DNA of 64,000 bases from Leeuwenhoekiella palythoae (GTDB taxonomy: Bacteria; Bacteroidota; Bacteroidia; Flavobacteriales; Flavobacteriaceae), in the NCBI RefSeq assembly GCF_900130045.1, contig NZ_FQXT01000002.1, positions 248,001 through 312,000 on the forward strand, read 5' to 3'. The notes beneath the pieces were generated by a model. The model worked only from the letters and a program-made list of their open reading frames with translations, did no database searches and was not told where the DNA came from. The position numbers and the translations under genes were made by a program. Each line of letters opens with the position of its first letter. The stretch's first letter is position 1. Positions 7,730 through 33,512 of the stretch are shown piece by piece.

Positions 7730-7745
7730 TGTTCCACGTGAAACA
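7730..7745. promoter_or_regulatory. parS-like site abutting the mnmG start codon
   Basis: TGTTCCACGTGAAACA matches the parS consensus at 15 of 16 positions. It touches the mnmG ATG (7729), so it occupies the place of the ribosome-binding site and lies in the mnmG leader. The same core CACGTG occurs at 5831-5846 on the other side of the gene. Confidence 0.75.
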
Positions 7746-16305: not shown

Positions 16306-18336
16306 TTATAGGTTGTTAACCGAATTTTCTAAGAGTTCATTTCCTGAGGTTTTCATTTCTTCAAGATAAGCTGCCACTTCTTCATTCTTTTGGTCAACTT
16401 TATTCAACTGAATTAAAACAATCAAGGTTTCTAAAACCGCTAGACGGGTACCTATCTTCTTAGCTGAAGTATTAAACAACTCTTTAAGTTCTTCATAATG
16501 CACATCTTTAGCTAGTTCGCGAATTCTCGCAATCGCTTTTACCCGCTTTTCATCTGGAATTTGCGCCAGCTTCTTCCCTACTTTTTTGATTTCGTTTAAC
16601 GCAGGGATTTGTGGAATTTGCTTTTTTGGTGCCGCTTTAGGCTGCTCTTTTTTTGTTGATTTTGATTCAACCTTTGCCCAAGTATCGCGTAATCCCACAG
16701 TTTTATTGAAGACTAAATGTTCTGGAGTACTATCTTTATCAACATTAAAATAGCCTAAGCGCTGAAACTGAAAAATATCCATCGGCTCTACCTCGCTAAG
16801 ACTTGGCTCTAAATATCCGGTAATAGTTTCTAAAGAATTAGGATTAAGATGCTCCATAAAATCAACCTCTTTATCACCATCGGGAGACTCGTGATTGAAC
16901 AGACGATCATACAAACGCACCTCAGCTTTAATAGCGTGCTTAATTGAAACCCAATGCAAGGTTCCTTTTACTTTACGCAGACTTGCTTCGGTACCGCTTC
17001 CACTTCGAGAATCGGCATCGTATGTACAGTGAATTTCAGTAATGTTTCCGTTAGCATCCTTAACTACAGATTCTCCTTTGATGATATACGCATTCTTTAA
17101 ACGCACTTCCTTACCTAAAGTAAGTCTGAAGTATTTGCTGTTTGCATTTTCTTTAAAATCATCCTTCTCGATGTATAATTCTTTGGAAAAAGGCACTTTT
17201 CTATAGCCTGCATTTTCATCTTCCTGATTATTTTCAGCTTCTAGCCATTCTTCCTGATCTTCAGGATAGTTGGTGATTACCAATTTTACCGGATCCAAAA
17301 CGGCCATTACACGTGGCGCTGTTTTATTAAGATCTTCACGTACATTGAATTCCAAAAGCGAAACATCAATCACATTGTCGCGTTTTGCAACTCCTACAGC
17401 ATCTATAAAATTACGTATCGCAGCCGGCGTATACCCACGTCTTCTGATCCCCGAAATGGTAGGCATTCTAGGATCATCCCAACCGCTTACAATACCTTCT
17501 TGCACGAGCTTAAGCAACTTACGCTTGCTCATAATCGTATAGCTTAGGTTTAAGCGCGCAAATTCGCGTTGTTTTGGTTTGATACCGTTTGTATACACAT
17601 TATCCACAAACCACTCATAAAGCGGTCTGTGCGGCTTAAATTCAAGCGAACACAAACTGTGTGAAACTTGCTCTACATAATCGCTCTCTCCGTGTGCCCA
17701 GTCATACATTGGATAAATATTCCAGGTATTACCTGTACGGTGGTGCGCTTTGTTAATAACGCGATACATTATAGGATCACGCAATAACATATTAGGCGAT
17801 TGCATATCTATTTTGGCCCGTAGAACGTGTACACCTTCGGCAAATTCACCTTTTGCCATTTTCTCAAACAGCTCTAAATTTTCTTCTACGGAACGCTCCC
17901 GGTACGGACTGTTAGTTCCGGGTTCTGTAGGGGTTCCTTTTTGCTCAGCCATGGCTTCACTAGACTGTGAATCAATATACGCTTTGCCATCTTTTATAAG
18001 CTGAATCGCCCAATCGTATAACTGCTGAAAATAGTCTGAAGAATAACAAACTTTATCCCACTTGAAGCCTAACCATTTTATATCTTCCTGAATCGCATCT
18101 ACATATTCCTGCTCTTCCTTAGAAGGATTAGTATCATCAAATCTTAAGTTTACCGGAGCGTTGTACTTCTCCCCCAGTCCAAAACTGATGCAAATAGCCT
18201 TGCAATGCCCAATGTGTAAATAACCATTAGGTTCCGGTGGAAATCTAAAGCGTAAATCTTCTTGGGGAAATCCGTTTGTAATATCTTCTTCTACTATTTG
18301 CTCTAAAAAATTAAGAGCTACATAATCTTCTGCCAT
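16306..18336 (-). CDS. glnS: Glutaminyl-tRNA synthetase with additional C-terminal helical domain
   Basis: 676 residues, against 554 for E. coli GlnRS. It charges tRNA-Gln. Class I motifs: HIGH at about 43-46 in RFPPEPNGYLHIGHCKAIC, and the KMSKS-type loop MSKRKLLKLV. The two anticodon-binding beta-barrels extend to about residue 555. From about 559 there is a Lys/Pro/Ala linker (KKEQPKAAPKKQIPQIP) and then a roughly 90-residue, mainly helical domain (VKAIARIRELAKDVHYEELK and beyond). This tail differs in appearance from the YqeY extension known in Deinococcus. Its upstream gap is shared with the divergent folB. Confidence 0.96.
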   Translation of the reverse strand: MAEDYVALNFLEQIVEEDITNGFPQEDLRFRFPPEPNGYLHIGHCKAICISFGLGEKYNAPVNLRFDDTNPSKEEQEYVDAIQEDIKWLGFKWDKVCYSSDYFQQLYDWAIQLIKDGKAYIDSQSSEAMAEQKGTPTEPGTNSPYRERSVEENLELFEKMAKGEFAEGVHVLRAKIDMQSPNMLLRDPIMYRVINKAHHRTGNTWNIYPMYDWAHGESDYVEQVSHSLCSLEFKPHRPLYEWFVDNVYTNGIKPKQREFARLNLSYTIMSKRKLLKLVQEGIVSGWDDPRMPTISGIRRRGYTPAAIRNFIDAVGVAKRDNVIDVSLLEFNVREDLNKTAPRVMAVLDPVKLVITNYPEDQEEWLEAENNQEDENAGYRKVPFSKELYIEKDDFKENANSKYFRLTLGKEVRLKNAYIIKGESVVKDANGNITEIHCTYDADSRSGSGTEASLRKVKGTLHWVSIKHAIKAEVRLYDRLFNHESPDGDKEVDFMEHLNPNSLETITGYLEPSLSEVEPMDIFQFQRLGYFNVDKDSTPEHLVFNKTVGLRDTWAKVESKSTKKEQPKAAPKKQIPQIPALNEIKKVGKKLAQIPDEKRVKAIARIRELAKDVHYEELKELFNTSAKKIGTRLAVLETLIVLIQLNKVDQKNEEVAAYLEEMKTSGNELLENSVNNL

Positions 18337-18365
18337 AGCTTAATAAATGCTGAAAAATAGAATTA

Positions 18366-18491
18366 CTCGTCTATCGAGCTTAAACTGCAGTACACTATTG
18401 TTTAAATAATATACCCTATAAGTTGCCAAAAATACTAAAAATACGTGTGCTGAAACGTGATTAACAACCTATTTAAACCTCGATAATCAAG
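18366..18491. promoter_or_regulatory. Pair of 13-bp palindromic motifs between glnS and folB
   Basis: CTCGTCTATCGAG (18366-18378) and CTCGATAATCAAG (18479-18491), starts 113 bp apart. Both resemble the palindrome CTCGATWATCRAG, of which a second pair lies at 34433 and 34551. The first copy falls in the glnS leader, the second upstream of folB. Confidence 0.45.
18427..18434 (-). promoter_or_regulatory. -7 box of glnS promoter
   Basis: TATTTTTG on the minus strand matches TAnnTTTG, giving a leader of roughly 85 nt before the glnS ATG. Confidence 0.45.
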
Positions 18492-18542
18492 TTCCTGCTC
18501 TGCTTTATAAATAATATCTTTACCCTATAAAATGAAGTTGTA

Positions 18543-18899
18543 ATGGGCGTTATAAAACTCAATCGCGTAAAAGTATATGCATACCACGGCTGTCTGGTAG
18601 AAGAAGGTCAGATAGGCTCTGATTATCTCGTAGATCTAAAAATAAATACAGACCTATCCATACCGGCTCAATCTGATAACTTGAGCGATACCGTAGATTA
18701 TGTACATCTCAATAAAATTATTAAAGAAGAAATGGCGCATCGTTCTAAGCTCTTAGAGCACGTATGCGATCGTATTTTAAATCGTTCTTTATCAGAGATT
18801 TCAACAATTACCAAAGCTAAAGTTACTGTGCGTAAAATCAATCCGCCGATTGGTGGTGATGTTGCTTCGGTAGGCGTTTCAATGACTAAAAAACGTTAA
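18543..18899 (+). CDS. folB: Dihydroneopterin aldolase
   Basis: 118 residues, the usual FolB length. It converts 7,8-dihydroneopterin to 6-hydroxymethyl-dihydropterin and glycolaldehyde in folate synthesis. The FolB pattern is clear: VKVYAYHGCLVEEGQIGSDY near the start with the catalytic Glu, SDTVDYVHLNKIIKEEM in the middle and VTVRKINPPIGG near the end. A near-consensus -7 box (TATCTTTA) lies shortly upstream. It is followed by tRNA-Cys, which has its own -7 box. Confidence 0.95.
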   Translation: MGVIKLNRVKVYAYHGCLVEEGQIGSDYLVDLKINTDLSIPAQSDNLSDTVDYVHLNKIIKEEMAHRSKLLEHVCDRILNRSLSEISTITKAKVTVRKINPPIGGDVASVGVSMTKKR

Positions 18900-18925
18900 T
18901 AGCTTTTATATCTAAAGAAAAACCT

Positions 18926-18933
18926 TAAATTTG
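18926..18933 (+). promoter_or_regulatory. -7 box of tRNA-Cys
   Basis: TAAATTTG matches TAnnTTTG, 17 nt before the mature tRNA 5' end. Confidence 0.6.
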
Positions 18934-18950
18934 CAGTCCTAATTAAAAAG

Positions 18951-19021
18951 GGTGTCGTGGCCGAGTGGCTAGGCAGTGGTCTGCAACACCATCTACAGCG
19001 GTTCGAATCCGCTCGACACCT
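18951..19021 (+). tRNA. tRNA-Cys (GCA)
   Basis: Acceptor arms GGTGTCG and CGACACC pair over 7 bp. The anticodon loop CTGCAAC presents GCA, and the T-arm reads GCGGTTCGAATCCGC. The discriminator is T (U73), the Cys identity base. CCA is not fully encoded. Confidence 0.95.
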
Positions 19022-19025
19022 CAAC

Positions 19026-19055
19026 AAAGACTCTTCAATTGAAGGGTCTTTTTTT
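19026..19055. terminator. Terminator after tRNA-Cys
   Basis: Stem AAAGACTCTTC, loop AATT, stem GAAGGGTCTTT with one G-T wobble, then T-run. It may also end the convergent LysE-family transcript. Confidence 0.85.
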
Positions 19056-19078
19056 ATGACTTGATTTTTCAAAGAATT

Positions 19079-19792
19079 CTAAAACGGAATCGTATCTCCT
19101 TCGATAAACTCATTCTCTGGCGCAATTTCCTCAATACGCTTTTCAATCTGATGAATTTTTGAAGGAAATAAACCTTTTGAGATCAATAACAAACCGAATA
19201 AGAACATCAACACGCTTATAATTTGCTTAATTATAGCAATACGTGTTGGCGTTAGTTTGCTGCGTAATTTTTTAGCAAGTAGAATTTTAATAATATCAAT
19301 GATTAGATAAGTGAGCAAAATGGTACCAAAGAATACCGTTAATCGCTCTGAATTCATATCTAACTGTGGCCCGGCTGAAATAAGAATTACCAACCAAAAC
19401 CCTAGTACTCCAATGTTAATAAAGTTGAGTAAAAAACCTTTTACAAAAAGCCCAAAATAGTTGCGTTTACTCATCACAACAGTAGGGTGCTCATCATCAT
19501 CAAGTTTGTTCTTTTTAACCCTTAAGAATGACATAATCCCATAAACTGCTAGTAACATCCCACCAAAAATATAAAGTGCAGGATCGTCTTTAAGTTTATC
19601 AAGTAGCTGATTAGTACTAAAGTACGCTATAAAAATAAATAAGGTATCTGCAGTAACGACACCTATATCAAATAGAACAGCTGCTCTAAAACCCTTTAGA
19701 GCAGCTGTTTCTAATAGTACAAAAAACACAGGTCCTACAAGAAAGGCAAGTAGAAAACCCAGTGGTATTGCTGTTGAAATGTCTTGTAGCAT
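19079..19792 (-). CDS. LysE/RhtB-family transporter
   Basis: 237 residues with about six membrane helices. The N-terminus IPLGFLLAFLVGPVFFVLLETAALKGFRAA is the LysE family signature (GPVFF...). Members export amino acids or related small metabolites; the substrate cannot be told here. The C-terminal 25 residues are hydrophilic. The upstream gap has the perfect palindrome CGGTTATTAACCG at 19878-19890, a possible operator. No adjacent regulator gene is seen. Confidence 0.88.
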   Translation of the reverse strand: MLQDISTAIPLGFLLAFLVGPVFFVLLETAALKGFRAAVLFDIGVVTADTLFIFIAYFSTNQLLDKLKDDPALYIFGGMLLAVYGIMSFLRVKKNKLDDDEHPTVVMSKRNYFGLFVKGFLLNFINIGVLGFWLVILISAGPQLDMNSERLTVFFGTILLTYLIIDIIKILLAKKLRSKLTPTRIAIIKQIISVLMFLFGLLLISKGLFPSKIHQIEKRIEEIAPENEFIEGDTIPF

Positions 19793-19877
19793 TTAGAAGT
19801 AGGAAGTCTTTTTACTTATTAGTAAACTAGATCTTCTAGAAATAGCACTATGAAGTATTTTATTAAGATTCTACCCC

Positions 19878-19890
19878 CGGTTATTAACCG
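19878..19890. promoter_or_regulatory. Palindrome upstream of LysE-family gene
   Basis: CGGTTATTAACCG is a perfect 13-bp palindrome about 86 bp upstream of the transporter start. A 12-base part (CCGGTTATTAAC) also occurs, reversed, in the ytxH upstream repeats at 16212-16223. Confidence 0.35.
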
Positions 19891-19926
19891 ACGATTAGAT
19901 TACAAAAGTAACCAAATTGAACTAAA

Positions 19927-20598
19927 CTACTTCATCACACGTACGCGACCCCCTATAAATTTATCTTTGATGAGCTCTGTGGGATTTCCGTAAACGTCTA
20001 CGTCACCACCAGCTCTGATCTTAACTTCGGCAGTTCTTCGGGCAAAAATATCTGCTTCTCCCCCCGCCTGAATGCGTATCGTGGTATCAGTAGTTTCTAG
20101 AGATTTTCCTTCAAAAACTCCACCTGTATTTACTTCTACATTTTGATTTACAGCGCTTCCGCTTGCGGTAATAATTCCACCGGTTACAGCACGCATTTCG
20201 GCATTTTCTACCTTTAGACCTGCAGTGACTTGAGCGCCTTCTTGTACTCTAATCTCAATTTTAGGTTGTTTAAGCAATTCGTTTACCACAATTTCGGCGC
20301 CTTCATTACCGTCAATAACTCTTAGGTTGTTATAATGAACTTCAACAAAAGTCTCGTTACCATCAAAGATCTTATCCAGATCCATACGTATTTTTAAAAC
20401 GCCGTCTTTATTAACAAGTTCTATATAATCAGTGTCTTTACCTTTTAAATAAACTTTGTTTTCAGAATCTTTAATAAGATTGACGCGCATGCGATCAAAA
20501 ACTTTTACTTCGGTAAAATCGCCAACGTCTTTGGTATCGTCTTGTGCATACGTTGCACCTGCAGCTACAAATAGCACTGCCATGATTAGTTTTTTCAT
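19927..20598 (-). CDS. Head GIN domain (DUF2807) secreted protein
   Basis: 223 residues. A signal peptide (MKKLIMAVLFVAAGATYAQ) is followed by the DUF2807 beta-solenoid: repeated short strands such as VKVFDRMRVNLIKDSENKVYLKG, LKVENAEMRAVTGGIITASGSAVNQNVEVNTGG and GGEADIFARRTAEVKIRAGGDVDVYG. These auto-transporter-adhesin-like solenoids are common and numerous in Bacteroidota, located in the periplasm or on the surface, with no defined biochemical function. It lies 60 bp after rnr in the same direction and may be co-transcribed. Confidence 0.87.
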   Translation of the reverse strand: MKKLIMAVLFVAAGATYAQDDTKDVGDFTEVKVFDRMRVNLIKDSENKVYLKGKDTDYIELVNKDGVLKIRMDLDKIFDGNETFVEVHYNNLRVIDGNEGAEIVVNELLKQPKIEIRVQEGAQVTAGLKVENAEMRAVTGGIITASGSAVNQNVEVNTGGVFEGKSLETTDTTIRIQAGGEADIFARRTAEVKIRAGGDVDVYGNPTELIKDKFIGGRVRVMK

Positions 20599-20658
20599 AA
20601 GAATTGATTTTTCGTATTTAAAAGACCAATCGGTTTTGGATTTGTTACAGTAGCTATC

Positions 20659-22866
20659 TTATTGAATCGCCTCTTTAACGTCAACCAAAGTAAAATCCAA
20701 GTGTTTTTTAACAAGATCTGCTTCTTTTACTTTTACATAAACCTCGTCCCCAAGAGTAATCGTGGCTCCGGTTTTGCGACCTACAATAGCATATTTCTCC
20801 TGATCAAAATCAAAATGATCGCCTTTAATGTCTCTTAAACGAATCATCCCCTCACATTTATTGTCTATGATCTCTACATAAATACCCCATTCGGTTACTC
20901 CGGAAATCACACCTAAAAAGGTTTCATCTTTATGATCTTGCATAAACTTCACTTGCATATACTTGATAGAATCGCGCTCAGCACTAGTAGCCAGATATTC
21001 CATATCGCTACTATGTTTACATTTAGATTCGTATTCTTCTTCTGAAGCAGATTTACCTTGATCTAGATAATGCTGTAAAAGGCGATGTACCATTAAATCA
21101 GGATAACGGCGTATTGGCGAAGTAAAATGCGTATAATACTCAAAAGCCAACCCATAGTGTCCAATATTGTCTGTACTATATACCGCTTTGCTCATCGTAC
21201 GAATAGCAAGTGTGTCTATCAGGTTCTGTTCTTTTTTACCAACAACATCAGTAAGAAGGTTATTTAAAGAAGCGGTTGTACTTTTTCTATCTTTAAGATT
21301 CATTTTATAACCAAAACGACCTGCGATGGTTTGCAAAGCTGCAAGCTTCTCGTCATTGGGTTCGTCGTGAATACGATAAACAAATGTTTTCTTTGGGGAT
21401 TGCTTTCCTATAAACTCAGCTACTTTTCTATTGGCTAAAAGCATAAATTCTTCAATTAGCTTATTAGCATCTTTTGAAGTTTTAAAGAAAACTCCAACCG
21501 GATCATTCTCTTGATCGAGTTCAAATTTTACTTCCACTTTATCAAAAGAAATCGCACCATCTTTCATACGTTGCCTACGCATAATTTTTGCGATTCTGTC
21601 TAGTTCTAAAGTAGCTTTTACAATAGCAGGATCTACGTTATATGACTTTCCGGTAAGCGAAATGTCCTCAGGAATCAATCCTTCTCTGGTTTCTATGATT
21701 TGTTGCGCTTCTTCATAAGCAAATCGTGCATCACTATAAGTTACTGTGCGCCCAAACCATTGCTTTTTAACTTTACCCGAAGATTTGTCTAATTCAAATA
21801 CTGCAGAAAAGGTATATTTCTCTTCGTTAGGTCGTAACGAACAAGCGTTATTAGATAAGATCTCGGGTAGCATAGGCACTACGCGATCTACCAAATACAC
21901 CGAAGTCGCACGTTCATACGCCTCCTCATCCAATATAGTTCCCGGAATAACATAGTGCGAAACATCTGCAATGTGAATTCCTACCTCGTAGTTTCCATTT
22001 TCTAAAACCTGAAAACTCAACGCATCATCAAAATCCTTTGCATCTTTAGGATCAATAGTAAATGTGAGCACCTCCCGCATGTCGCGACGCTTAGCAATCT
22101 CCTCTGCTTTTATGCTTGTATCAATGTTATTAGCATAGGCTTCAACCTCTTCAGGGAAATCATGGGGCAAGCCGTACTGCGCTAAAATAGAATGAATTTC
22201 TGTATTATGTTCGCCTGGTAAGCCCAGTACTTTAATAACTTTTCCGAAGGGCGAATCTGCTTTCTCCGGCCAATCTTCAATCTTTACGAGCACTTTTTCA
22301 CCATCCTGTGCTCCATTCAATTTATTCTTCGGAACAAAAATATCGGTACGCATTTTTCCTTCTGCGGAAGTATTTACAAAAGCAAAGTTCTTTTGCATCT
22401 GCACTACACCTACGAATTCGTCTGTTTTGCGTTCCAGAATTTCTACAATCTCCCCTTCGTGCTTTTTGCTTCGGCGTTGTTTGTAAACATATACTTTTAC
22501 CGTATCACCGTGCAAAGCCTTATTCATGTTGTTCTTAGGAATATAAATATCCTGTTCCATTCCTTCTACAACAACATAACCATCTCCACGAGATGTAGCA
22601 TCTAGTGTTCCTGTATGATAATGAGAGGTCGCGTTAAAGCTGTATTTGCCACGCTCTTTCTCTTCGATATGTTTTTTTGCAGTAAGTTGTGAGAGCTTTT
22701 TTACGATCTCGTTACGGCTGTTGGGGTCATCCACTTGAAGTTTAGCCGCAATTTGTTTATGATTGAATAATTTACCGGGTTCTCTTTTTAAAATTTTTAA
22801 AATCTTTTGAGTGAGATCACCGATTTGAGTATTTGATCTTCTTCTTCTCTTTTTATTTGGCATCAA
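20659..22866 (-). CDS. rnr: Ribonuclease R
   Basis: 735 residues. A 3'-5' exoribonuclease that degrades structured RNA. Domains in order: an N-terminal helix-turn-helix (about 10-75), cold-shock/OB domains (about 80-240), the RNB catalytic domain with the Asp cluster TIDPKDAKDFDDALSF (about 270-285) and SPIRRYPDLMVHRLL, and a C-terminal S1 domain (about 640-725). It has its own -7 box. It is divergent from the unannotated 34-residue ORF at 23068. Confidence 0.97.
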   Translation of the reverse strand: MMPNKKRRRRSNTQIGDLTQKILKILKREPGKLFNHKQIAAKLQVDDPNSRNEIVKKLSQLTAKKHIEEKERGKYSFNATSHYHTGTLDATSRGDGYVVVEGMEQDIYIPKNNMNKALHGDTVKVYVYKQRRSKKHEGEIVEILERKTDEFVGVVQMQKNFAFVNTSAEGKMRTDIFVPKNKLNGAQDGEKVLVKIEDWPEKADSPFGKVIKVLGLPGEHNTEIHSILAQYGLPHDFPEEVEAYANNIDTSIKAEEIAKRRDMREVLTFTIDPKDAKDFDDALSFQVLENGNYEVGIHIADVSHYVIPGTILDEEAYERATSVYLVDRVVPMLPEILSNNACSLRPNEEKYTFSAVFELDKSSGKVKKQWFGRTVTYSDARFAYEEAQQIIETREGLIPEDISLTGKSYNVDPAIVKATLELDRIAKIMRRQRMKDGAISFDKVEVKFELDQENDPVGVFFKTSKDANKLIEEFMLLANRKVAEFIGKQSPKKTFVYRIHDEPNDEKLAALQTIAGRFGYKMNLKDRKSTTASLNNLLTDVVGKKEQNLIDTLAIRTMSKAVYSTDNIGHYGLAFEYYTHFTSPIRRYPDLMVHRLLQHYLDQGKSASEEEYESKCKHSSDMEYLATSAERDSIKYMQVKFMQDHKDETFLGVISGVTEWGIYVEIIDNKCEGMIRLRDIKGDHFDFDQEKYAIVGRKTGATITLGDEVYVKVKEADLVKKHLDFTLVDVKEAIQ

Positions 22867-22885
22867 ATGCTTTTATTAATTAGTG

Positions 22886-22893
22886 CAAAATTA
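22886..22893 (-). promoter_or_regulatory. -7 box of rnr promoter
   Basis: TAATTTTG on the minus strand matches TAnnTTTG, 19 nt upstream of the rnr ATG. Confidence 0.55.
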
Positions 22894-23010
22894 GCGTTAA
22901 TCGTATTAACATAAGTCGTGTTTAGGTGAACTTTTAGTTAATCTTAGTATTTCATTATCAAACAAATACATATTTAACAGTAACATGACCAAGATTTAAT
23001 TTCAAAACAA

Positions 23011-23039
23011 TTGTTTTTGTTAAAAAAACCTTAATTTTG
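23011..23039 (+). promoter_or_regulatory. Full promoter (TTG-N18-TAATTTTG) of the 34-residue ORF
   Basis: TTG at 23011-23013 and TAATTTTG at 23032-23039 are 18 nt apart, matching the Bacteroidota -33/-7 promoter TTG-N17-19-TAnnTTTG. The ATG at 23068 is 28 nt downstream. Confidence 0.7.
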
Positions 23040-23067
23040 TTCTATTCATTAATCAAAACTTTTCTTT

Positions 23068-23172
23068 ATGAAAACGTTTAAATTGAAACGCTATAGAATA
23101 GCACTGCTCTTTATAGGAATATTCATCCTAGGATTCGTAGCTGTTTTATCCTACGTCAATTCAATTTTTTAA
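23068..23172 (+). CDS. 34-residue single-pass membrane protein (unannotated small ORF)
   Basis: The product has a basic N-terminus (MKTFKLKRYRI) followed by a single membrane helix (ALLFIGIFILGFVAVLSYV) and a short tail NSIF. Evidence that it is a real gene: a full promoter 28 nt upstream, a start in good context, an N-in/positive-inside topology, and a strong rho-independent terminator 27 bp after the stop. It stands alone between rnr (divergent) and the AT-rich gap. I do not recognise the family. It is too short for usual gene finders. It could be a small membrane regulator or a stress peptide; a toxin is possible but nothing shows an antitoxin RNA. Confidence 0.7.
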   Translation: MKTFKLKRYRIALLFIGIFILGFVAVLSYVNSIF

Positions 23173-23198
23173 TACAATCAATCACTTTTAAAAGTACT

Positions 23199-23228
23199 AA
23201 AGGAACTCTAAAAAGGGTTCCTTTTTTA
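23199..23228 (+). terminator. Terminator of the 34-residue ORF
   Basis: Stem AAAGGAACTC, loop TAAAAA, stem GGGTTCCTTT with one wobble pair, then T-run. Confidence 0.88.
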
Positions 23229-23958
23229 TTATAAATACATTTCAAGTAGAGTAAGCTAAGTTTCCCAATTCAAAATAGTCTTCAAAAACAGTTTTCAACA
23301 GTATACATATATATCATTTTTTTTTTAAAAATTTAAATTAAAATTGATGGTTATTATAGTCTGTTAATAGCGGTATAACTTGGGGATCTTAAAATTTGGT
23401 TTTTTAATTATGGGTAGATATTAACGCTTTATTCCATACTTTTAAATACAACTTTTACTTGATTTATAAGCTTTTAGTAAACACTGTTAACAATTGTTGA
23501 TAACCTGAATTAAATGCATTTTTTGAATAAAACGTTATCAACACTTATTAAAAATGAATTCTTTTTATGCTCATAATTTGAAAAGAAAATTCTACAAGAT
23601 TTTCTTGCAAGATATTACTTAAGATCTGCTTTGTAATTTTTTCTCATTTAAGCAATTTTCATTTTACTTTTTTGACGACAACTTATAAACAGTCATGTTA
23701 ACTAAATGTTAACTTATTGAAAACGAGCACTATCACGTGTTTTGTAAACTGCATTGTATTCTTAATCAGATAGCTTACTATTTTTTAATGTTCAACCGCT
23801 AATAACAGTCTGCTTTTTGGGTTTGTTTTGGAGCTTTAATCATATCTATAAAGCGAGCTTTTGAAAGTTTTCATCAAAGGATTCGAAGATATGAAGCTAG
23901 ATAAAGAAGTTCTCTCTAAAAATTAGATATTGCAACAAAACTAAAACTTAGAACCCCA
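23229..23958. other. 730-bp AT-rich non-coding region, candidate replication origin
   Basis: No credible gene is seen on either strand. The left part holds an A/T tract (23303-23345) that looks like an unwinding element. An inverted pair of TTATCAACA 9-mers (minus 23495-23503, plus 23535-23543), one base off the DnaA-box consensus TTATNCACA, lies 31 bp apart. TGTTAAC occurs at 23485, 23696 and 23707. mnmG with parS-like sites and rnpA lie within 16 kb and 4 kb. This fits an origin, but GC skew could not be computed. Confidence 0.45.
23495..23543. promoter_or_regulatory. Inverted pair of DnaA-box-like sites
   Basis: TTATCAACA on the minus strand (23495-23503) and on the plus strand (23535-23543). 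Each differs from TTATCCACA at one position. AACAATTGTT, a perfect palindrome, overlaps the left site. Confidence 0.4.
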
Positions 23959-24402
23959 ATGATGACTATTGAAATTAAAGCGTTTAATGAGCTTACCTTA
24001 AACAGTTTATACGAAGTACTCCAATTGCGCACTGAAGTATTTGTGGTAGAACAAAATTGCCCATATCAAGATGTTGACGGTAAAGATCAAAAGGCCATGC
24101 ACATTCTAGGTTATCATAAGGAGCAACTGGTAGCCTATACTAGGGTTTTTAAACCCGGATATTATTTTGATAACGCTAGCATAGGTCGCGTTGTTGTAAA
24201 AGAAAATGCGAGACAATACGGTTTTGGAAAAGATATTATGAAAGCTTCTATTGCCTTTATTGAAGATACCTTAGATCTGAGCACGATAGAATTGTCTGCA
24301 CAGACCTATTTAAAGAAGTTTTATAATGACCTTGGATTTCAAGAAATTGGAGAAGGTTATCTAGAAGATGATATTCCGCATATACGTATGATAAAAAAAT
24401 AA
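23959..24402 (+). CDS. GNAT family N-acetyltransferase, ElaA-like
   Basis: 147 residues. The ElaA-type GNAT pattern is clear: LYEVLQLRTEVFVVEQNCPYQDVDGKD near the N-terminus, ASIGRVVVKENARQYGFGKDIM as the acetyl-CoA loop (R/Q-x-x-G-x-G/A) and LSAQTYLKKFYNDLGFQEIGEGYLEDDIPHIRM at the end. It acetylates an unknown small-molecule or protein amine. The message starts after the AT-rich gap. Two consecutive ATG codons occur at 23959 and 23962; either could be used. Confidence 0.9.
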   Translation: MMTIEIKAFNELTLNSLYEVLQLRTEVFVVEQNCPYQDVDGKDQKAMHILGYHKEQLVAYTRVFKPGYYFDNASIGRVVVKENARQYGFGKDIMKASIAFIEDTLDLSTIELSAQTYLKKFYNDLGFQEIGEGYLEDDIPHIRMIKK

Positions 24403-24442
24403 ACGACTAAGAAATCCTATATCTTTCGCCACCGCCAATAAA

Positions 24443-24465
24443 AAAAGCCGCAATACGCGGCTTTT
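24443..24465. terminator. Bidirectional terminator
   Basis: Stem AAAAGCCGC, loop AATAC, stem GCGGCTTTT between the convergent GNAT gene and the 125-residue gene. Confidence 0.88.
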
Positions 24466-24488
24466 AATATGTTTATAACTGGGGATGT

Positions 24489-24866
24489 TTAAATCTTCAC
24501 CGGAGTCATATCAAGATTGATACTATTCAAGGTATCATCGGTAAATTTATAATGACCTCTAGTGGTAAAGATTTTAAACTTAAAATTCTTCATCGAACTC
24601 AAAGTATCTAAAAATAACCATTTTGACTTCAGTAGTCTAGGTTTTTTAGATTTTAAACTCAGTTCAAAAATATGTTTTTCGCCATCACGTTCCGCTACAA
24701 TATCTGGTGTGATTGATACTTCGCTTCCGCGTCTGATATACGATTTAGGAGACTCAAAACCGTCTGTATCGGCTTTGATATTTTCATATCCTCGGTCTTC
24801 TAAATAGCTTATCGCTGTTCCTAAAATTTCTGTGTTCTTATCGGTATCCTTATCTATAGTTATCAT
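24489..24866 (-). CDS. Conserved small protein with restriction-endonuclease-like features
   Basis: 125 residues, no signal peptide, Lys-rich. The order of elements resembles a PD-(D/E)xK fold: an N-terminal helix (TEILGTAISYLEDRGYE), a short strand with ITPDIVAERDGEKHIFELSLK (PD, then Glu and Lys on the next strand), and a helix and strands afterwards (KSKWLFLDTLSSM, FKIFTTRGHYKF). The last motif reads E-L-S-L-K rather than the canonical E-x-K, so catalysis is uncertain. It stands alone, transcribed leftward, and has no neighbours that explain it. I do not assign a function. Confidence 0.65.
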   Translation of the reverse strand: MITIDKDTDKNTEILGTAISYLEDRGYENIKADTDGFESPKSYIRRGSEVSITPDIVAERDGEKHIFELSLKSKKPRLLKSKWLFLDTLSSMKNFKFKIFTTRGHYKFTDDTLNSINLDMTPVKI

Positions 24867-25017
24867 ACATATAACATAAGAGATAGCGATTAAATTACTA
24901 CTAATTTAAAGTTAAAGAACTGGTTATTAATGTTAAACCATTTCTTAAATGTAGTATTTTGTAGTAAAATAATAGTATATTAAAGATTTTTGGTTAATTA
25001 AGTATAACCCTGAAAAT

Positions 25018-26643
25018 CTATCGGTTAAGAATTTTTGCATAGCGCTGTGGATCTTGGAGTACTTTTTTAGCCTCTTCAATTTCCTCATTGTGTGAAAGTT
25101 GATATTCATACAAACCTTCGCGATAAAAATACCGCTTTACAAGTTCGTCAATGATCAATTTAGAAATCTCACGTTCTTTTCTATTCAGTTGCTCCTTTTT
25201 AGCAACATCAATGGTACGCATTAAGTTAGCGTACTCACTGCTGATATCATCCTGTAAATTATCTTTAGATGCGTCTAGGTAAACTTCTTCAAGATCTTTT
25301 TCAGTTTGGGTTTGATACTCAAAACCTTGCTTGTCTAAGTACGTTTTAAATGCCGTATAATCTGCATTGGTGAATTTAAAATCAGAGATGTCGTTATACT
25401 TATGTTTATAAAAATAATCAGTAGCAAAATCAAATATCGCCTGATCGCGTAGTAGTGCTTCGGTGATCGCGCTCATTCTTGCTGATTCAATTTGAATATC
25501 GGGCAAAATTCCGCCGCCATCATAGACTTTGCGACCGGTACTCGTTTTAAATTCGTTGTAATCTTCGGCATTTGTGCGTATCGCATTACCGTTATCATCC
25601 CGATTCCAATAATCTAAAGCTTGAATACATCTACCACTTGGGGTGTAATATCTAGAGATGGTGATCTTTAATTGCGTGCCGTAAGTAAGCTCTTTGGGCC
25701 GCTGCACCAAACCTTTACCAAAACTACGTGCACCCACCACCACTGCTCTATCATAATCTTGTAATGAGCCTGATACAATCTCGCTCGCCGATGCACTGCG
25801 ACCATTGATCAAAACTGCCACCGGAATTTCCGTATCCAACGGCTCTTTTGGCGTATAATATTCCTGATTGTATTTCTCAATAACCGATTTTGTGTTGGTG
25901 ATCAATTTACCCTTCGGAAGAAATAAATTACTCACATTTATCGCTTCGGTTAAAAGTCCGCCGGGATTACCTCTCAAGTCTAAAATAAGCGAAGTTGCTC
26001 CTTGCTCTTTTAAATCCTTAATGGCTGCAGCAGTCTCTGATGAAGCTTTTTTATTAAATTTTGATAGCACTACATACCCTATTTTTCCATCAATAAGCGT
26101 GTAATACGGCACCGCGTTGATATCAATTTCTTCTCTGGTCAGACTGGTGGTTTGAAGTTTACCTTGACGTTTGTAGGTGATAGGAATACTTGTTCCCGGA
26201 GCTCCTTGTAACAGATCACCGGCATCTTCTTCAAAGTCTGCGATGTTGATATCTCCTATCTTTATCAACTCATCTCCCGCTTGTAAACCGGCTTTATCAG
26301 CAGGATAATCTTTATAAGCTTCTAAAATTGTGATGGTTTTATTACGCGTTAACACCGAAGCGCCAATCCCCGTATATTCTCCACTGTTACTTATACGCGC
26401 ATCTTCAACCTCTTGCTCTGTCCAGTATTTAGTATAAGGATCCAAATCTGCCAGCATTCCTTCAATAGCGCTATCCATTAGCTCCGCCGGATTTACCTCA
26501 TCTACATAATTCATATTGAGCTCTTTGAACAAAGTGGTAAAGATTTCTATCTGCTTGGCGATTTCAAAAAAGTCACTTTTAAAACTTACGGTTGTAAATA
26601 AAATGAGGACCGCTGTTACTGAGATGAGTATGCGCTTTTTCAT
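25018..26643 (-). CDS. S41 family C-terminal processing peptidase
   Basis: 541 residues. An N-terminal signal/anchor (about 4-20) leads to a helical segment, a PDZ domain (about 90-165, GIGASVLTRNKTITI...ADKAGLQAGDEL), and the S41 catalytic core with GRSASASE (281-288, nucleophile Ser) and the general-base Lys in SFGKG (Lys310). A C-terminal helical domain (about 400-541) is rich in Lys/Glu. Such peptidases trim proteins in the periplasm. It is the third gene of the run M1 peptidase - rnpA - S41, 54 bp after rnpA. Confidence 0.93.
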   Translation of the reverse strand: MKKRILISVTAVLILFTTVSFKSDFFEIAKQIEIFTTLFKELNMNYVDEVNPAELMDSAIEGMLADLDPYTKYWTEQEVEDARISNSGEYTGIGASVLTRNKTITILEAYKDYPADKAGLQAGDELIKIGDINIADFEEDAGDLLQGAPGTSIPITYKRQGKLQTTSLTREEIDINAVPYYTLIDGKIGYVVLSKFNKKASSETAAAIKDLKEQGATSLILDLRGNPGGLLTEAINVSNLFLPKGKLITNTKSVIEKYNQEYYTPKEPLDTEIPVAVLINGRSASASEIVSGSLQDYDRAVVVGARSFGKGLVQRPKELTYGTQLKITISRYYTPSGRCIQALDYWNRDDNGNAIRTNAEDYNEFKTSTGRKVYDGGGILPDIQIESARMSAITEALLRDQAIFDFATDYFYKHKYNDISDFKFTNADYTAFKTYLDKQGFEYQTQTEKDLEEVYLDASKDNLQDDISSEYANLMRTIDVAKKEQLNRKEREISKLIIDELVKRYFYREGLYEYQLSHNEEIEEAKKVLQDPQRYAKILNR

Positions 26644-26697
26644 AGAAATTATTTTTTAGGTATTGCTTTTAGAAAGATACTAAGAAAGCAAAGAAAT

Positions 26698-27093
26698 TTA
26701 AAAACCGGCCTCTTGATCTGTTGCGGCTGTTTTAGCATTAAACTTTGCAATAAGCTTCAACATGGCTTTTTCTAATTCGGTATAAGAAGCTATTTCTTTG
26801 CCGGTATAGATAAACATAAACGCAAAAGTCTTATCATTTGTTTGAAACTGTGTTTTGTTTTTTCGATAAACTTCGCGCATTAAGCGCTTTAACCTATTGC
26901 GTGTTACCGCTTTTTTATGATTGCGTTTTGCTACAGAAACGCCGGCTTGTATGGGTACCTGTTCTTCTGGCAAAGCCGTTGGGACGTAAAACAATAACAG
27001 CGGATAACTGTTTATCTTTTGACCTTCGGAAAATAATTTATCCAGCAGTTTTTTACGTTTTAAATGCTCCTTTTTAGGGAAAGTTTGATCCAT
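26698..27093 (-). CDS. rnpA: Ribonuclease P protein component
   Basis: 131 residues, slightly longer than the usual 110-125. It is the protein subunit of RNase P, which removes the 5' leader of tRNAs. The RNP motif region reads AGVSVAKRNHKKAVTRNRLKRLMREVYR, with the conserved basic KxxAVxRNRxKR core. The usual partner rpmH is not next to it; instead it lies 6 bp downstream of an M1 peptidase gene and 54 bp upstream of the S41 gene. rnpA near the origin is a common bacterial arrangement. Confidence 0.95.
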   Translation of the reverse strand: MDQTFPKKEHLKRKKLLDKLFSEGQKINSYPLLLFYVPTALPEEQVPIQAGVSVAKRNHKKAVTRNRLKRLMREVYRKNKTQFQTNDKTFAFMFIYTGKEIASYTELEKAMLKLIAKFNAKTAATDQEAGF

Positions 27094-27099
27094 AACTTT

Positions 27100-29673
27100 T
27101 TAATTTTCTAAAGAAGCTTGCATCACGTGCACACGTTCGAGATCATCAGTGGCTTGTAATAATTTGTTTTTGAGCACCTTGTTGAGGTCAGGATGTGCTT
27201 TTAAATAATTTTCTCTAATGGTATATGCTTCTGCTGAAGAATAACGCCCAATGGTAGCATTTAACCAATTTTTTGGAAAGAAAATATCTCCTGTTAGTTG
27301 TATTTCTTCGAGCAATTCTAAAGACGTTTTAAGGTGTTTTAAACCACTTTCTTGTCTCAATGGATGATTGATATAACCTAATGCTGAAAGTACCCAGGAT
27401 TCTTTCTCTCTGTTTTTAGCATCCTGTAAACTGTTTACAAAGTTGGCGCGGGTAGATTCGTCAGAAGACAGTGTGGGTTGTAAAAACTCAAATCTGCGTT
27501 TTTTATCAGGATTGGTAATGGCGGCTGCAGCTTCTTTGAGAATGATATCGGTATGCTCATGCCCAAATAATGCAAGTTGCATAGCGATGCCGGTATAATC
27601 ATCTTCGTTGAGTTTTAGGTTATTTATCTGTGTTTCTTTATTCCATATTGCATATAAGCGGTCTTTACCTGAAGGTGAATAGGCAATAGATTCAAAAAGC
27701 CCAAAAAATGTTTTTTTAATATTCGCCGGAAGCGCTTGCTGCAACTGATTATACACCAGATCTTCCAACTCTTTCTGATGTGATTCGCGTTGTATATCGG
27801 TGAGGTAGGTCCAGTATAAATTTTGCATCTGACTACTAATTCGGTTTAAGATCAATGCATTTTTTTCGTTAACCAAGCCTTTTTTATACAGTTCAAATAC
27901 TGAAATAGGATTAAGACCTGCATTTAATAAATTTTCATGAACATTGATATAGCTGTATCCTCTGGCCACCTCATCTTGAACCTGCGGAAGACTTTGAAGC
28001 AAATCATCTTTCTGCGGAAAAATACCATAACCCATTCCGTCGTAATTGTAGATAATTTGCTGAGGTTTTGGCAAACCTTGAGCACCTTCTAGAAGTAAGC
28101 GTTTTTCTTTAAAAGCAGCTGTGAGTATGTGGGTAGAGTCGGCATATACAAGCCCAATTTTAAAGGTTTGCGGCCAAATTTTAGCACTTCCGTCTTCAGC
28201 ACTTTGAATGAGTTGAAGTTTTTCAATAGTATTCTGAGCATCATAGGTAATTTCTTCAGAAAACACAGGGCGACTGCTTTGATTAACCCAGACTTCACTC
28301 CATTTTTTGAGGTCTAAATTTGTTTTAGTATCTAAAATAGAAACCAGATCATCCCACACAGCATTATCATAAGCATAGGTCTTTATGTATTCTTGAATAC
28401 CTTCTTGAAAAGCTTTTTTACCCGTAGCAAGCTCAAGCTGACGCATCATAATAGGTGCTTTGTGATAGATGATTCCGCCGTAAAGAGAACCGGCATTTTT
28501 TAAATTATCAAGCTCTTGCCGTATGGGGTTAGCACCTTTTGTGCGGTCTTCACCATAAGCACTGGGGTAATGACTCAATACAAATAGCAAGTCGTGATTT
28601 ACCTCAGGAAATTCGGGATTAACGATCTTATCTGCCATAAAATTGGCAAAAACTTCTTTCATCCAAACATCATTAAACCAGTTCATCGTGACCAAATCGC
28701 CAAACCACATATGCGAGGTTTCATGCGCGATGAGTTTGGCTCTGCTTAACAACTGACTTTCGGTAGCGGTCTGATCTAAAAACAAGGTAGATTCCCGGTA
28801 TTGAATAGCGCCCACGTGCTCCATTCCGCCATATTGAAAAATGGGAATCGTAGCAAAATCAAGCTTTTGAAACGGAAAAGAATATGCAGTATAGTCCTCT
28901 AAATAATCTACCGCGCCTTTATGCAATTCAAAAATTGGATCAAGACTAGATTGCACTTTGGTACTGTCTGTCTCGCGATAAAGTAACTTCATATCAAATC
29001 CTGAAAGATCTTTTGTTGCGGTTTTAAATTTTCCGGCTACAAAAGAGAATAAATAGGTACTCATCAAGTCTGAAGTGGCAAAGGTATGCGTGATGAAATT
29101 TCCATTTTTTGATTGCTCTTGCTCCGGTGCTCCGGCCAGAACTTCCCAATCCTGGGGTGCGGTGATGCTTAAATTATAAGTTGCCTTTACATTAGGTTGA
29201 TCAAAGCAAGGAAATAAGGTACTTGCCCTATCAGGAACCAAGAGCGTGTATAAAAAATCTTCGTTTCTGTTAAGAGATTGCTCGCCGGCAGTAAATGCTA
29301 TTTCAATATGATTTTTACCTTCTTTTAAATATTCTGAAGGAATGATCACATGCTCCTGCTCGTGAATAATATCAATGGCTTCGGTATTGGCTATAACATT
29401 ACTTACGTGACCTTTTTCCACATTAAAATCAAGATAAAGCGGTTGAGAACTATCGTGAATGGTAAGCGTAAGATCTAGAGAGGCGGGTATCGAATCTTCT
29501 AATTTTTCAGGGATAGAGAAATTGAGATCATAAACAATATCGCTGAGCTGTTGCTTTCTAAAATCGGCTAATTCTCTTGAAATTCCTGTACTGAGTAAAT
29601 TATAATCTTCGGTTGAAGGTTTACAAGAGAAAAGACTCAGTACCAAAATGGAGACAAATACGCGTGTGGTCAT
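27100..29673 (-). CDS. M1 family aminopeptidase (lipoprotein)
   Basis: 857 residues from the ATG at 29673. A longer frame to 29757 adds 28 residues that overlap the upstream terminator, so I prefer the internal ATG, which starts a lipoprotein signal (MTTRVFVSILVLSLFSCKP). The exopeptidase GGMEH motif is at about 282-286. The zinc site HETSH is at 317-321 with the second Glu near 340 (MKEVFANF). An N-terminal beta-domain and a long C-terminal helical domain complete the ERAP/aminopeptidase N architecture. It releases N-terminal residues from peptides at the membrane face. rnpA follows 6 bp later. Confidence 0.93.
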   Translation of the reverse strand: MTTRVFVSILVLSLFSCKPSTEDYNLLSTGISRELADFRKQQLSDIVYDLNFSIPEKLEDSIPASLDLTLTIHDSSQPLYLDFNVEKGHVSNVIANTEAIDIIHEQEHVIIPSEYLKEGKNHIEIAFTAGEQSLNRNEDFLYTLLVPDRASTLFPCFDQPNVKATYNLSITAPQDWEVLAGAPEQEQSKNGNFITHTFATSDLMSTYLFSFVAGKFKTATKDLSGFDMKLLYRETDSTKVQSSLDPIFELHKGAVDYLEDYTAYSFPFQKLDFATIPIFQYGGMEHVGAIQYRESTLFLDQTATESQLLSRAKLIAHETSHMWFGDLVTMNWFNDVWMKEVFANFMADKIVNPEFPEVNHDLLFVLSHYPSAYGEDRTKGANPIRQELDNLKNAGSLYGGIIYHKAPIMMRQLELATGKKAFQEGIQEYIKTYAYDNAVWDDLVSILDTKTNLDLKKWSEVWVNQSSRPVFSEEITYDAQNTIEKLQLIQSAEDGSAKIWPQTFKIGLVYADSTHILTAAFKEKRLLLEGAQGLPKPQQIIYNYDGMGYGIFPQKDDLLQSLPQVQDEVARGYSYINVHENLLNAGLNPISVFELYKKGLVNEKNALILNRISSQMQNLYWTYLTDIQRESHQKELEDLVYNQLQQALPANIKKTFFGLFESIAYSPSGKDRLYAIWNKETQINNLKLNEDDYTGIAMQLALFGHEHTDIILKEAAAAITNPDKKRRFEFLQPTLSSDESTRANFVNSLQDAKNREKESWVLSALGYINHPLRQESGLKHLKTSLELLEEIQLTGDIFFPKNWLNATIGRYSSAEAYTIRENYLKAHPDLNKVLKNKLLQATDDLERVHVMQASLEN

Positions 29674-29743
29674 TAAAGGGTGCTTGATATTTGAAAGGTT
29701 AAATATCGGGAAAACGCTGCAATGCATGCCAATGCCTATAAAA

Positions 29744-29774
29744 AAAGCCGTTTTCAAAAGGTGAAAACGGCTTT
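29744..29774 (-). terminator. Terminator after the second M1 gene
   Basis: Stem AAAGCCGTTTTC, loop, stem GAAAACGGCTTT. On the minus strand the T-run follows, so it ends transcription of the gene at 29836-31680. Confidence 0.9.
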
Positions 29775-29835
29775 AATTACTTCTTTTTTGGCATCACCAA
29801 AGGATATATAATCCTAAGGAATTAGGCTTCAAGAT

Positions 29836-31680
29836 TTATTCAGCATCTTTAGACCAGCTGTTGTTGCTTCGGTCTATGTCAGCCATTAACTGTTGTGCGT
29901 CTATAGTCATCGCTTTAATTTCAGAAAGCGGCTTGTCTATCGTAAAAGTATACGTTGGGTACGCCCACGGCCAGTCTTCTAACTGCGTGCGTGGCATAGT
30001 AGGAAACGGATTTACCTTGCTTGCGCGCATCATACGTAACGGAATGTAATAGGCTTCTGTAGCATCATCTGTTGTGTTGATATAGAAATCTACCGGCATT
30101 GGCATTAAGCCTTTACGCTCTAAAGTAACTTGAGTTTTTCCATCAACTTCTTCAACGTTTTTTATTGCGTAATCAATGGTATTGGTAGTTTCTGTCCAGT
30201 CTACTAAATACCAGTCAAGCTGCATACCGCTTACTTTTTCTGCAACACGCTTAAAGTCGTTAGGCGTAGGATGTTTAAAATGCCATTCATCAAAATATCT
30301 TGTTAGCGTTTTTGCTAAATTCTCCTGACCAATGACATAACCTAATTGTGCTAAAAACACAGCACCTTTAGAATACGCCGAAGCACCATATGCAGCATTC
30401 AGTGCATAACGGTCTGCATAGGTGGTTTGCGGTTGTTCTATACCGCTGGTTGCTAATCTGAAGTAAGAAGAATAATTACCCGCTTGAGGATTTTCTTTCT
30501 TCTCTCCCATTACCACATTTTCTGCTTCGGTAGAGATGTAGGTGGTAAAACCTTCATCCATCCACTCGTATTTTTGCTCATTGGTAGCCATTAAAAACTG
30601 AAACCAACTGTGAGCAAATTCGTGCGCGGTTACCCCTACTAAACTTCCAAAACTACGTTCACCGGTAATTAAAGTACACATTGCATACTCCATACCACCA
30701 TCACCACCTTGAATCACTGAGTACTGATCGTAAGGATATTGGCCTACGTGCTTGTTATAAAAAGCTAAAAGCTCTGCTGTTTTAGGCTGAAGATTTTTCC
30801 AGTTTTCAATGATTTCCTTGTTGTCTTTGTAAAAGAAATGCAAGATCGTACCGTCTTCTGCTGTGATTTTATCGTGAATATAATCAGGATCAGCTGCCCA
30901 AGTAAAATCGTGTACGTTAGGCGCCACAAAATGCCAGGTGTATTTTCCTTTTGTTGGCTTGACAGGTTTTTGATCAGGTGCTCCATATCCATGGCCTATT
31001 TCAGGATTTTGTAGATAACCGGTACCACCAATGGTATAGTCTGCATCGATGCTGATTTTCACATCAAAGTCTCCCCAAACGCCATGAAATTCACGTGCGA
31101 TGTAAGGATCTGCGTGCCAACCCTGAAAATCATATTCAGCTAATTTAGGATACCACTGTGTCATAGACAGGGCTACTCCTTCGGCATTATTGCGACCGCT
31201 TCTTCTGATCTGTACCGGTACTTGACCGTTAAAATCCATGTTGAAGGTGGTGCTTTCGCCCGGAGCAATAGGCTCTGCAAGACTTACTTCAAGTACAGTC
31301 CCAGCTACGTTGTACGTTAGTGCGGTTCCATCTTGAGTCAATGTACTTACTTTTAAGAAGCCGATCTCATCTGGTTCTAATTTTGAAATGCGATCTACCA
31401 CGCGACGATCAGGATCTTGAATAGTTAAAGAACGCACATCCATCTCGCTTCCCGGTTGAAAAGCATTAAAATAAAGATGATAAAAAACCTGATCTAGAGT
31501 ATCAGGCGAATTATTAGTGTACACCAATTCTTGTTTACCGGTGTAATTGTAATCTTCAACATTCATATCAACCTCCATGGTATAATCAACATGTTGTTGC
31601 CAGTATGAAGTATTGTTTTGTGCTTGTGCAAAGCTAAAAAAGCCTAAGATTGAAAGACCTACTAGAGTTTTTAAGTTCAT
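29836..31680 (-). CDS. M1 family metallopeptidase (secreted)
   Basis: 614 residues. Signal peptide MNLKTLVGLSILGFFSFAQAQ. The zinc site is HEFAH (353-357) with the second Glu at about 376 (MDEGFTTYIS), preceded by GDGGMEYAM, the exopeptidase motif. An N-terminal beta-sandwich (about 30-270) and a short C-terminal region are present, without the large C-terminal domain of the other M1 protein. Predicted periplasmic or surface zinc peptidase. It is a separate transcript, closed by a terminator. Confidence 0.93.
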   Translation of the reverse strand: MNLKTLVGLSILGFFSFAQAQNNTSYWQQHVDYTMEVDMNVEDYNYTGKQELVYTNNSPDTLDQVFYHLYFNAFQPGSEMDVRSLTIQDPDRRVVDRISKLEPDEIGFLKVSTLTQDGTALTYNVAGTVLEVSLAEPIAPGESTTFNMDFNGQVPVQIRRSGRNNAEGVALSMTQWYPKLAEYDFQGWHADPYIAREFHGVWGDFDVKISIDADYTIGGTGYLQNPEIGHGYGAPDQKPVKPTKGKYTWHFVAPNVHDFTWAADPDYIHDKITAEDGTILHFFYKDNKEIIENWKNLQPKTAELLAFYNKHVGQYPYDQYSVIQGGDGGMEYAMCTLITGERSFGSLVGVTAHEFAHSWFQFLMATNEQKYEWMDEGFTTYISTEAENVVMGEKKENPQAGNYSSYFRLATSGIEQPQTTYADRYALNAAYGASAYSKGAVFLAQLGYVIGQENLAKTLTRYFDEWHFKHPTPNDFKRVAEKVSGMQLDWYLVDWTETTNTIDYAIKNVEEVDGKTQVTLERKGLMPMPVDFYINTTDDATEAYYIPLRMMRASKVNPFPTMPRTQLEDWPWAYPTYTFTIDKPLSEIKAMTIDAQQLMADIDRSNNSWSKDAE

Positions 31681-31711
31681 ATTTTAGTTTAGTTTTTACG
31701 CAATAAACGAT

Positions 31712-31768
31712 AAAAAATGCTCGAAACACCCATTATTGGAACCACCAAGAAATGTGGTATCTCGAGCA
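31712..31768 (-). terminator. Terminator of the S8 peptidase gene
   Basis: Outer stem TGCTCGA/TCGAGCA with an inner ACCAC/GTGGT hairpin. On the minus strand the last arm is followed by T6. Confidence 0.75.
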
Positions 31769-31775
31769 GTGTTAA

Positions 31776-33431: not shown

Positions 33432-33512
33432 ATTTAGGAGTTATTTTATGTTGTGGCATTGCTGCCGGGTTGCTGAGGAAATGGGTTATAACTATTCTTT
33501 AATTCCTCAGGT

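Follow-up and report, generated by a model that had tools for sequence, protein, structure and literature searches.

A Predicted Chromosomal Replication Origin Beside rnr in Leeuwenhoekiella palythoae, with a Putative Unwinding Module Conserved in the Flavobacteriaceae

Introduction

The BUS of the Bacillus subtilis oriC, an origin unwinding system made of DnaA boxes and DnaA-trios, is among the closest described counterparts of the element reported here. For such unwinding modules the published rule, as worded in the available text of the survey, asks for a DnaA box followed, after no more than 16 nt of spacer, by three or more NAN units (PMC8287927). In Bacteroidetes, oriC commonly lies far from dnaA according to the accessible part of the Prevotella intermedia study, which cites DoriC for this (PMC4755523). 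Within the Flavobacteriaceae, dnaA was found to disagree with the skew in Mariniflexile, and Ori-Finder 2022 placed the oriC beside mnmG, the legend of the figure swapping the labels of the two sites relative to the text (PMC11278836). The oriC of Algorimicrobium was likewise assigned to mnmG (PMC12843772), while the record start of Lutibacter was set at dnaA (PMC5219744); these papers, too, are cited for the portions of their text at hand. Among the titles and abstract beginnings listed by searches of the open literature, none placed a flavobacterial origin at the rnr gap or described trios there, although a prior DoriC entry is possible.

The present analysis concerns a stretch of 64,000 nucleotides from Leeuwenhoekiella palythoae, hereafter the window, which corresponds to C5:248,001-312,000 in a genome of 4.03 Mb distributed over 14 contigs. 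A first-pass annotation, made from the letters alone, had proposed the AT-rich, gene-free gap at 23,229-23,958 (no strand) as a candidate chromosomal origin. We find that this gap is very probably the chromosomal replication origin (oriC) of the organism; the prediction is supported by a strand-corrected skew interval that holds the gap and by conservation at the genus and family level.

The Gap Between rnr and the GNAT Gene

The left neighbour of the gap is rnr (20,659-22,866, minus strand; TIGR02063, 741.3 bits), encoding a ribonuclease R that shares 93% identity with the Leeuwenhoekiella aestuarii enzyme, and the right neighbour is a gene for a GNAT acetyltransferase (23,959-24,402, plus strand; PRK10314-like, below the curated cut-off). 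Further right lies rnpA (26,698-27,093, minus strand; TIGR00188, over the cut-off). The gap is indeed gene-free, as from the start of rnr (about 22,866) to that of the GNAT gene (23,959) the ORF list has no ORF of at least 90 aa; since no such ORF interrupts it, the whole rnr-GNAT space measures 1,092 bp. The left third of this space holds an ORF of 34 codons (23,068-23,172, plus strand) and, behind it, a terminator-like hairpin with a T run (23,200-23,229, plus strand; read by eye from the sequence), and the 730 bp originally delimited start directly past this hairpin. The small ORF, MKTFKLKRYRIALLFIGIFILGFVAVLSYVNSIF, lies upstream of rnr on the opposite strand and has one membrane span by eye. 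With tblastn it was found full-length, at 41-97% identity, in 9 of 10 congener genomes and partially in G011 (G009 and G012 being excluded), and its product has the look of a small, conserved membrane protein with a single span.

The AT content of the gap is 74.2%, as against 61.6% for the window, and only 0.8% of 730-bp windows are equally AT-rich, those overlapping the gap counted. The motifs named in the first-pass annotation were found at their coordinates and above the level of dinucleotide shuffles of the gap. A cluster of DnaA boxes above chance was seen with TTATNNACA, of which three copies were observed (mean 0.37, P 0.006). TTATCAACA was observed twice (mean 0.02), a number reached in none of 1,000 shuffles, and TGTTAAC four times over both strands (mean 0.17; 0 of 1,000 shuffles), while the inverted TTATCAACA pair appeared in none of 5,000 shuffles. 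These P values are optimistic because the motifs had been picked after looking at the gap. Genome-wide, TTATCAACA has 88 copies as compared with 52 for the pattern read backwards, and two pairs lie less than 60 bp apart, the one in the gap and a direct pair on C11 (list read by eye). Across the whole 64 kb no enrichment was observed for TGTTAAC (8 observed, 11.2 expected) or for TTATNCACA with one mismatch (87 observed, 76 expected), and there is no perfect TTATNCACA box within the gap.

To the right of the unwinding module described below, motif scans and congener alignment place the inverted TTATCAACA boxes 31 bp apart at 23,495-23,503 (minus strand) and 23,535-23,543 (plus strand). This pair had been stressed in the first-pass annotation; it is present but only partly conserved, the left box being exact in 8 of 13 genus genomes and the right box kept in 2 of 13, and it was rejected as the defining feature of the locus. 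The three TGTTAAC copies start at 23,485, 23,696 and 23,707 on the plus strand. The first also reads on the minus strand at 23,486 and lies in the palindromic TGTTAACA (23,485-23,492, no strand) with which the string CTGTTAACAATTGTTGATAAC begins; the other two (23,696-23,702 and 23,707-23,713) form the repeats at 23,696-23,713. Next to them, the DnaA-box-like TTATAAACA (23,683-23,691, plus strand) reads TTATCCACA, TTATACACA or TTATGCACA in three divergent congeners, which is the behaviour expected of a DnaA box.

Two other identities of the gap were rejected. A scan of 22-25 kb against Rfam gave sub-threshold matches only and no family at gathering score, which does not suggest a known RNA element, and in a plasmid collection the gap was without match at distant sensitivity (E 1e-5), so a plasmid-like origin was dismissed.

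Unwinding Module

The most telling part of the gap, missed by the first-pass annotation, is a module of DnaA box, DnaA-trios and A/T tract at 23,292-23,378. The left edge of the module is the DnaA-box-like TTTTCAACA (23,292-23,300, plus strand), which reads TTATCAACA, TTATCCACA or TGTTAACA in some relatives. It is followed by the A/T-rich tract (23,308-23,343, no strand), the proposed unwinding site, and by five proposed DnaA-trios on the minus strand, 5'-TAT AAT AAC CAT CAA (23,344-23,358). Behind the trios, column conservation points to the trio-proximal DnaA box CTATTAACA (23,362-23,370, minus strand), a moderate box with three mismatches to TTATCCACA, and, together with congener alignment, to the weak tandem box-like TTATACCGC (23,370-23,378, minus strand), which has four. 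The order on the minus strand is TTATACCGC, CTATTAACA, a 3-nt spacer, TAT AAT AAC CAT CAA and then TTTTAATTTAAATTTTTAAAAAAA. With this spacer and five NAN units the window follows the rule for BUS and DnaA-trios, and the core, as predicted from its sequence, matches the published unwinding module BUS.

The nearest-neighbour stability scan put the lowest stability of any 50-bp segment in the 64 kb at 23,308-23,357, that is the A/T tract with the trios, so at the 50-bp scale the gap holds a low-stability region suited to unwinding. In windows of 80-200 bp the gap region comes second or third in instability and 24.8-25.0 kb comes first. The least stable 200 bp of the window, 24,821-25,020, lie just behind a prc-like protease gene and are without TTATNNACA.

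Column statistics were obtained from 61 family loci matched by a profile of the core (see below). The box consensus over these rows is (C/T)TAT(T/C)(A/C)ACA with the final ACA conserved at 98-100%, and the trio centres are A in 100, 100, 92, 100 and 100% of the rows; several other columns also exceed 90%. Box and 3-nt spacer are followed by three or more successive NAN units in 53 of the 61 rows, as compared with 3.6 of 61 when the letters of each row were shuffled, though the rows are related and do not count as 61 independent events. Within the genus, 62 of 65 trios over 13 genomes carry the central A (hand count).

Strand Composition

The first-pass annotation had held that a GC-skew minimum far from the gap would speak against an origin there. 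Over 860 of the 864 kb of C5 the cumulative minimum falls at C5:282,612, position 34,612 of the window and 11 kb right of the gap. Strand correction used a fit to fourfold sites with gene strand and side as its two terms. The support interval of the corrected switch, 18,336-27,100 of the window, has the gap inside, and the counter-evidence named beforehand did not materialize. The corrected fit is best with a break 3 kb to the right of the gap, with log-likelihood deficits of 1.3 for the gap, 6.4 for the raw minimum and 7.5 for mnmG. For the single-contig congener G003 it is best with a break 5 kb to the left of the element, the deficits being 1.0 for the element, 2.8 for parS and 4.7 for the raw minimum, and the support interval again contains the element. 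A replication-type switch of strand composition is therefore found at the locus. The gene bootstraps, searched up to 60 kb from the gap, give wide intervals (18.8-49.9 kb of the window; 4.165-4.231 Mb in G003) that take in the raw minimum and, for G003, parS; because of this width, composition alone points to a neighbourhood and not to a point.

The leftward bias of the genes to the left of the gap was recovered as a bias, at 13 of 17 non-nested ORFs of at least 90 aa, but not as the 15 of 20 first counted. Among leftward genes, the GC3 skew on the left side of the gap is +0.21 over the nearest 23 kb (10 genes) and +0.067 for all 106, whereas on the right it is -0.056 in the adjoining 10-kb block (5 genes) and -0.124 further right (181 genes). 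With a skew of -0.056, the leftward block right of the gap has the sign of head-on genes, though more weakly, and the 11-kb offset of the raw minimum fits an explanation by this block.

In G003 the core lies at 4,184,652-4,185,096 and the skew minimum at 4,196,646, an offset nearly the same as in the genome of the window; the raw minimum misses the element by 11-12 kb in both. The sampled skew maximum of this congener is near 2.06 Mb (51 sampled 20-kb stretches, spaced mostly by 100 kb), about half a chromosome from the element, which is at 4.185 of 4.245 Mb. From the family search with the core model (see below), ten single-contig genomes of other genera were selected among the best-scoring single-contig rows. 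Measured in 20-kb stretches at 130-150 kb from the element, the skew is negative on the left and positive on the right in 8 of the 10; G220 is reversed and in G168 the left value is just above zero.

parS, mnmG and dnaA

The parS-like sites noted earlier near mnmG (5,852-7,729, minus strand; TIGR00136, 839.7 bits) are real. Directly before the gene lies a perfect parS consensus (7,730-7,745, no strand), the sole perfect site of the genome, and behind it a motif scan gave a second site with one mismatch (5,831-5,846, no strand). Both are 15.5-17.5 kb left of the core, the perfect one at about 15.5 kb, so parS is found within tens of kb of the proposed origin. A perfect parS is present in 13 of 13 genus genomes, and in the 12 that have it on one contig with the core the distance is 14.5-16.4 kb. 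Among the ten single-contig genomes of other genera, nine contain perfect sites, 14 in all and each 3.6-54 kb from the core, while G080 has none; in four of the ten, two perfect sites stand about 1.9 kb apart. Contig C80 of G011 carries four further perfect palindromic parS (TGTTTCACGTGAAACA), perhaps from a plasmid or contamination (9% contamination is listed for G011). Near the perfect parS of the window, an ORF of 1,121 residues (8,214-11,579, minus strand) beside ybeY is without NCBIfam match.

The origin might instead be at mnmG itself, about 16 kb left, with the gap being something else. Ori-Finder 2022 called the origin there in two other Flavobacteriaceae, Mariniflexile litorale (PMC11278836) and Algorimicrobium (PMC12843772), and in the available part of a further source mnmG (gidA) adjoins oriC in other bacteria (PMC10225481). 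The gene is, moreover, flanked by the parS sites. We consider an origin at mnmG very improbable. ParB sites are expected near an origin rather than on it, and the BUS-like core sits at the gap. The corrected skew is worse for mnmG by 7.5 log-likelihood units in the genome of the window and by 2.8 in G003, though in the latter the position falls inside the bootstrap interval. Within 2 kb of the parS at 7,730 there is no TTATNNACA, but three TTATNCACA sites with one mismatch occur (5,549, 7,053 and 8,016).

Equally little credit can be given to an origin in the space between divergent genes at 34,371-34,701. The raw skew minimum at 34,612 falls in this space, and gene direction switches there, the non-nested ORFs of at least 90 aa at 24,489-34,370 being uniformly leftward up to it. 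However, the leftward genes before 34,371 have the GC3 skew sign of head-on genes, and the corrected fit at 34.4-34.7 kb is worse by 6.4 units here and by 4.7 in G003, yet still inside the bootstrap interval. No TTATNNACA is present between 32.4 and 41.9 kb, and 34,394-34,538 falls between the blocks aligned to G003, whereas the core of the gap aligns.

The proposed oriC in the gap has no dnaA beside it, although such adjacency is usual for bacterial chromosomal origins, if said to be uncommon in Bacteroidetes (PMC4755523). The gene is on contig C9 (near 403 kb), and in all 11 single-contig genomes (G003 and the ten of other genera) it is 0.9-2.1 Mb from the module, or 46-90% of half a chromosome by our own arithmetic with the records taken as circular. 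An origin at dnaA was rejected, as the dnaA of G003 at 1.854 Mb is near the sampled skew maximum. The recognition helix of DnaA in the genome of the window reads RDHATVLHA, and a DnaA signature pattern gave no match to this protein. DnaA of model bacteria has DHST or DHTT, with S or T in place of the A in RDHATVLHA. The DHAT helix might go with the relaxed box TTATCAACA.

Conservation and Reach

The first-pass annotation had suggested looking for the gap in relatives, and its conserved part was recovered at the genus and the family level. A conserved non-coding core at 23,284-23,727 (no strand) is matched in 13 of 13 genus genomes, the own genome counted, with partial matches of about 220-240 bp in G009 and G012; against G003 its identity is 84.7% over 445 columns. 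A profile of the core matches 61 of 80 family loci (E <0.001), all upstream of rnr and in one orientation; the distance from the gene runs from 61 to about 2,190 bp. The 80 loci had been retrieved with rnr as bait, and their reversed versions gave zero matches up to E 10. In 19 of the 80 there is no core match, and at least two of these (L046 and L051) have less than 250 bp upstream of rnr. CGGTATAA was rejected as a universal signature, since many family loci do not have it as such upstream of rnr; the columns of box and trios hold up better across the family.

A sequence-only core model of 112 positions was built from 55 genus and family sequences. It matches 258 of 299 sampled family genomes (230 of 249 good-quality ones; 206 of 236 genera), figures that are partly by construction because the model was trained on the same family, and 41 of the 299 are without match. 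In a class sample 19 of 295 genomes match, namely 8 of 9 listed family members and 11 others at no more than 30.5 bits; since the weakest family match (G143) has 25.7 bits, family and non-family scores overlap.

DnaA boxes in gene-free DNA can serve titration or reactivation, as in datA and DARS, the DnaA-binding regulatory loci of E. coli, and the gap could in principle be such a locus close to, and not at, the origin. This is a far-fetched reading of the gap, as the trio array and the 50-bp stability minimum of the window are features of unwinding and nearly every genome among the rows listed has one copy of the core, with two in G066, G085, G088, G213 and G285. A role of the conserved block as 5' leader or promoter for rnr or the GNAT gene is just as hard to credit: although it stands upstream of rnr in the 61 of 80 loci found with rnr as bait, its distance from rnr ranges over the 61 to about 2,190 bp given above, the conserved small ORF and terminator-like hairpin separate the two here, rnr is within 1.5 kb of the core in 22 of the 30 best family loci and was not found there in 8, and 22-25 kb has no Rfam family at gathering score.

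Proposed Mechanism and Implications

The neighbourhood, the conservation and the anatomy of the module come from computation; DnaA binding, melting, helicase loading and the action of ParB are what we infer. DnaA, made from its distant gene, would bind the DnaA boxes within 23,292-23,691. A DnaA-ATP filament would then start at the tandem boxes (23,362-23,378) and extend on the minus strand across the trios (23,344-23,358), melting the A/T tract (23,308-23,343). The helicase would be loaded at the melted tract and two forks would depart, while ParB on the parS sites 15.5-17.5 kb to the left may hold the new origins.

We also put forward, tentatively and at somewhat less than an even chance, that most Flavobacteriaceae have one origin core in common, about 110 bp long, which is kept beside rnr with dnaA far off, and that the DnaA of these bacteria reads a relaxed box, with A replacing the C of the sixth position, by way of the DHAT helix. 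The core would consist of the box TTWTCAACA, the A/T tract, five trios and the tandem boxes CTATTAACA/TTATACCGC. If a single core of this kind holds family-wide, assignments of the origin to mnmG or dnaA in this family are off. The kind of object is ordinary, a chromosomal origin, and existing calls made by gene may miss its place by about 16 kb or more. The short signature would locate the origin in most of the genomes sampled from a large family, in which dnaA-start records and published mnmG calls point elsewhere. For the DnaA-trio model of unwinding, deep conservation lends backing in Bacteroidota beyond that of a motif search alone. For specialists, the use may lie in an unwinding module conserved across the family, and the locus could serve studies of initiation control at an origin whose dnaA is distant.

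Comparison with Known Systems

The mnmG calls made by Ori-Finder 2022 in Mariniflexile and Algorimicrobium, as far as the available text of the two papers describes them, probably concern the same chromosomal neighbourhood (PMC11278836, PMC12843772). In the window, mnmG is about 16 kb from the module, and this comparison is by gene name and not by coordinates. The predicted oriC of Prevotella intermedia, in the accessible part of its description, is similar in being a DnaA-box-rich locus at a skew transition and far from dnaA (PMC4755523); the origin proposed here differs in that it is defined by a conserved module beside rnr and not by box counting.

A further likeness is to the BUS of the Bacillus subtilis oriC. 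On the available text of the survey, both have DnaA boxes, a short spacer, at least three trinucleotides with a central A and an A/T region proposed to melt (PMC8287927). The better box is the trio-proximal one in the window, whereas in the survey it tends to be the upstream one, and the consensus 3'-GAT-5' does not occur among the five trios of the window. As compared with Bacillus subtilis, the two boxes of the window overlap by one base and dnaA is not beside the module (PMC8287927).
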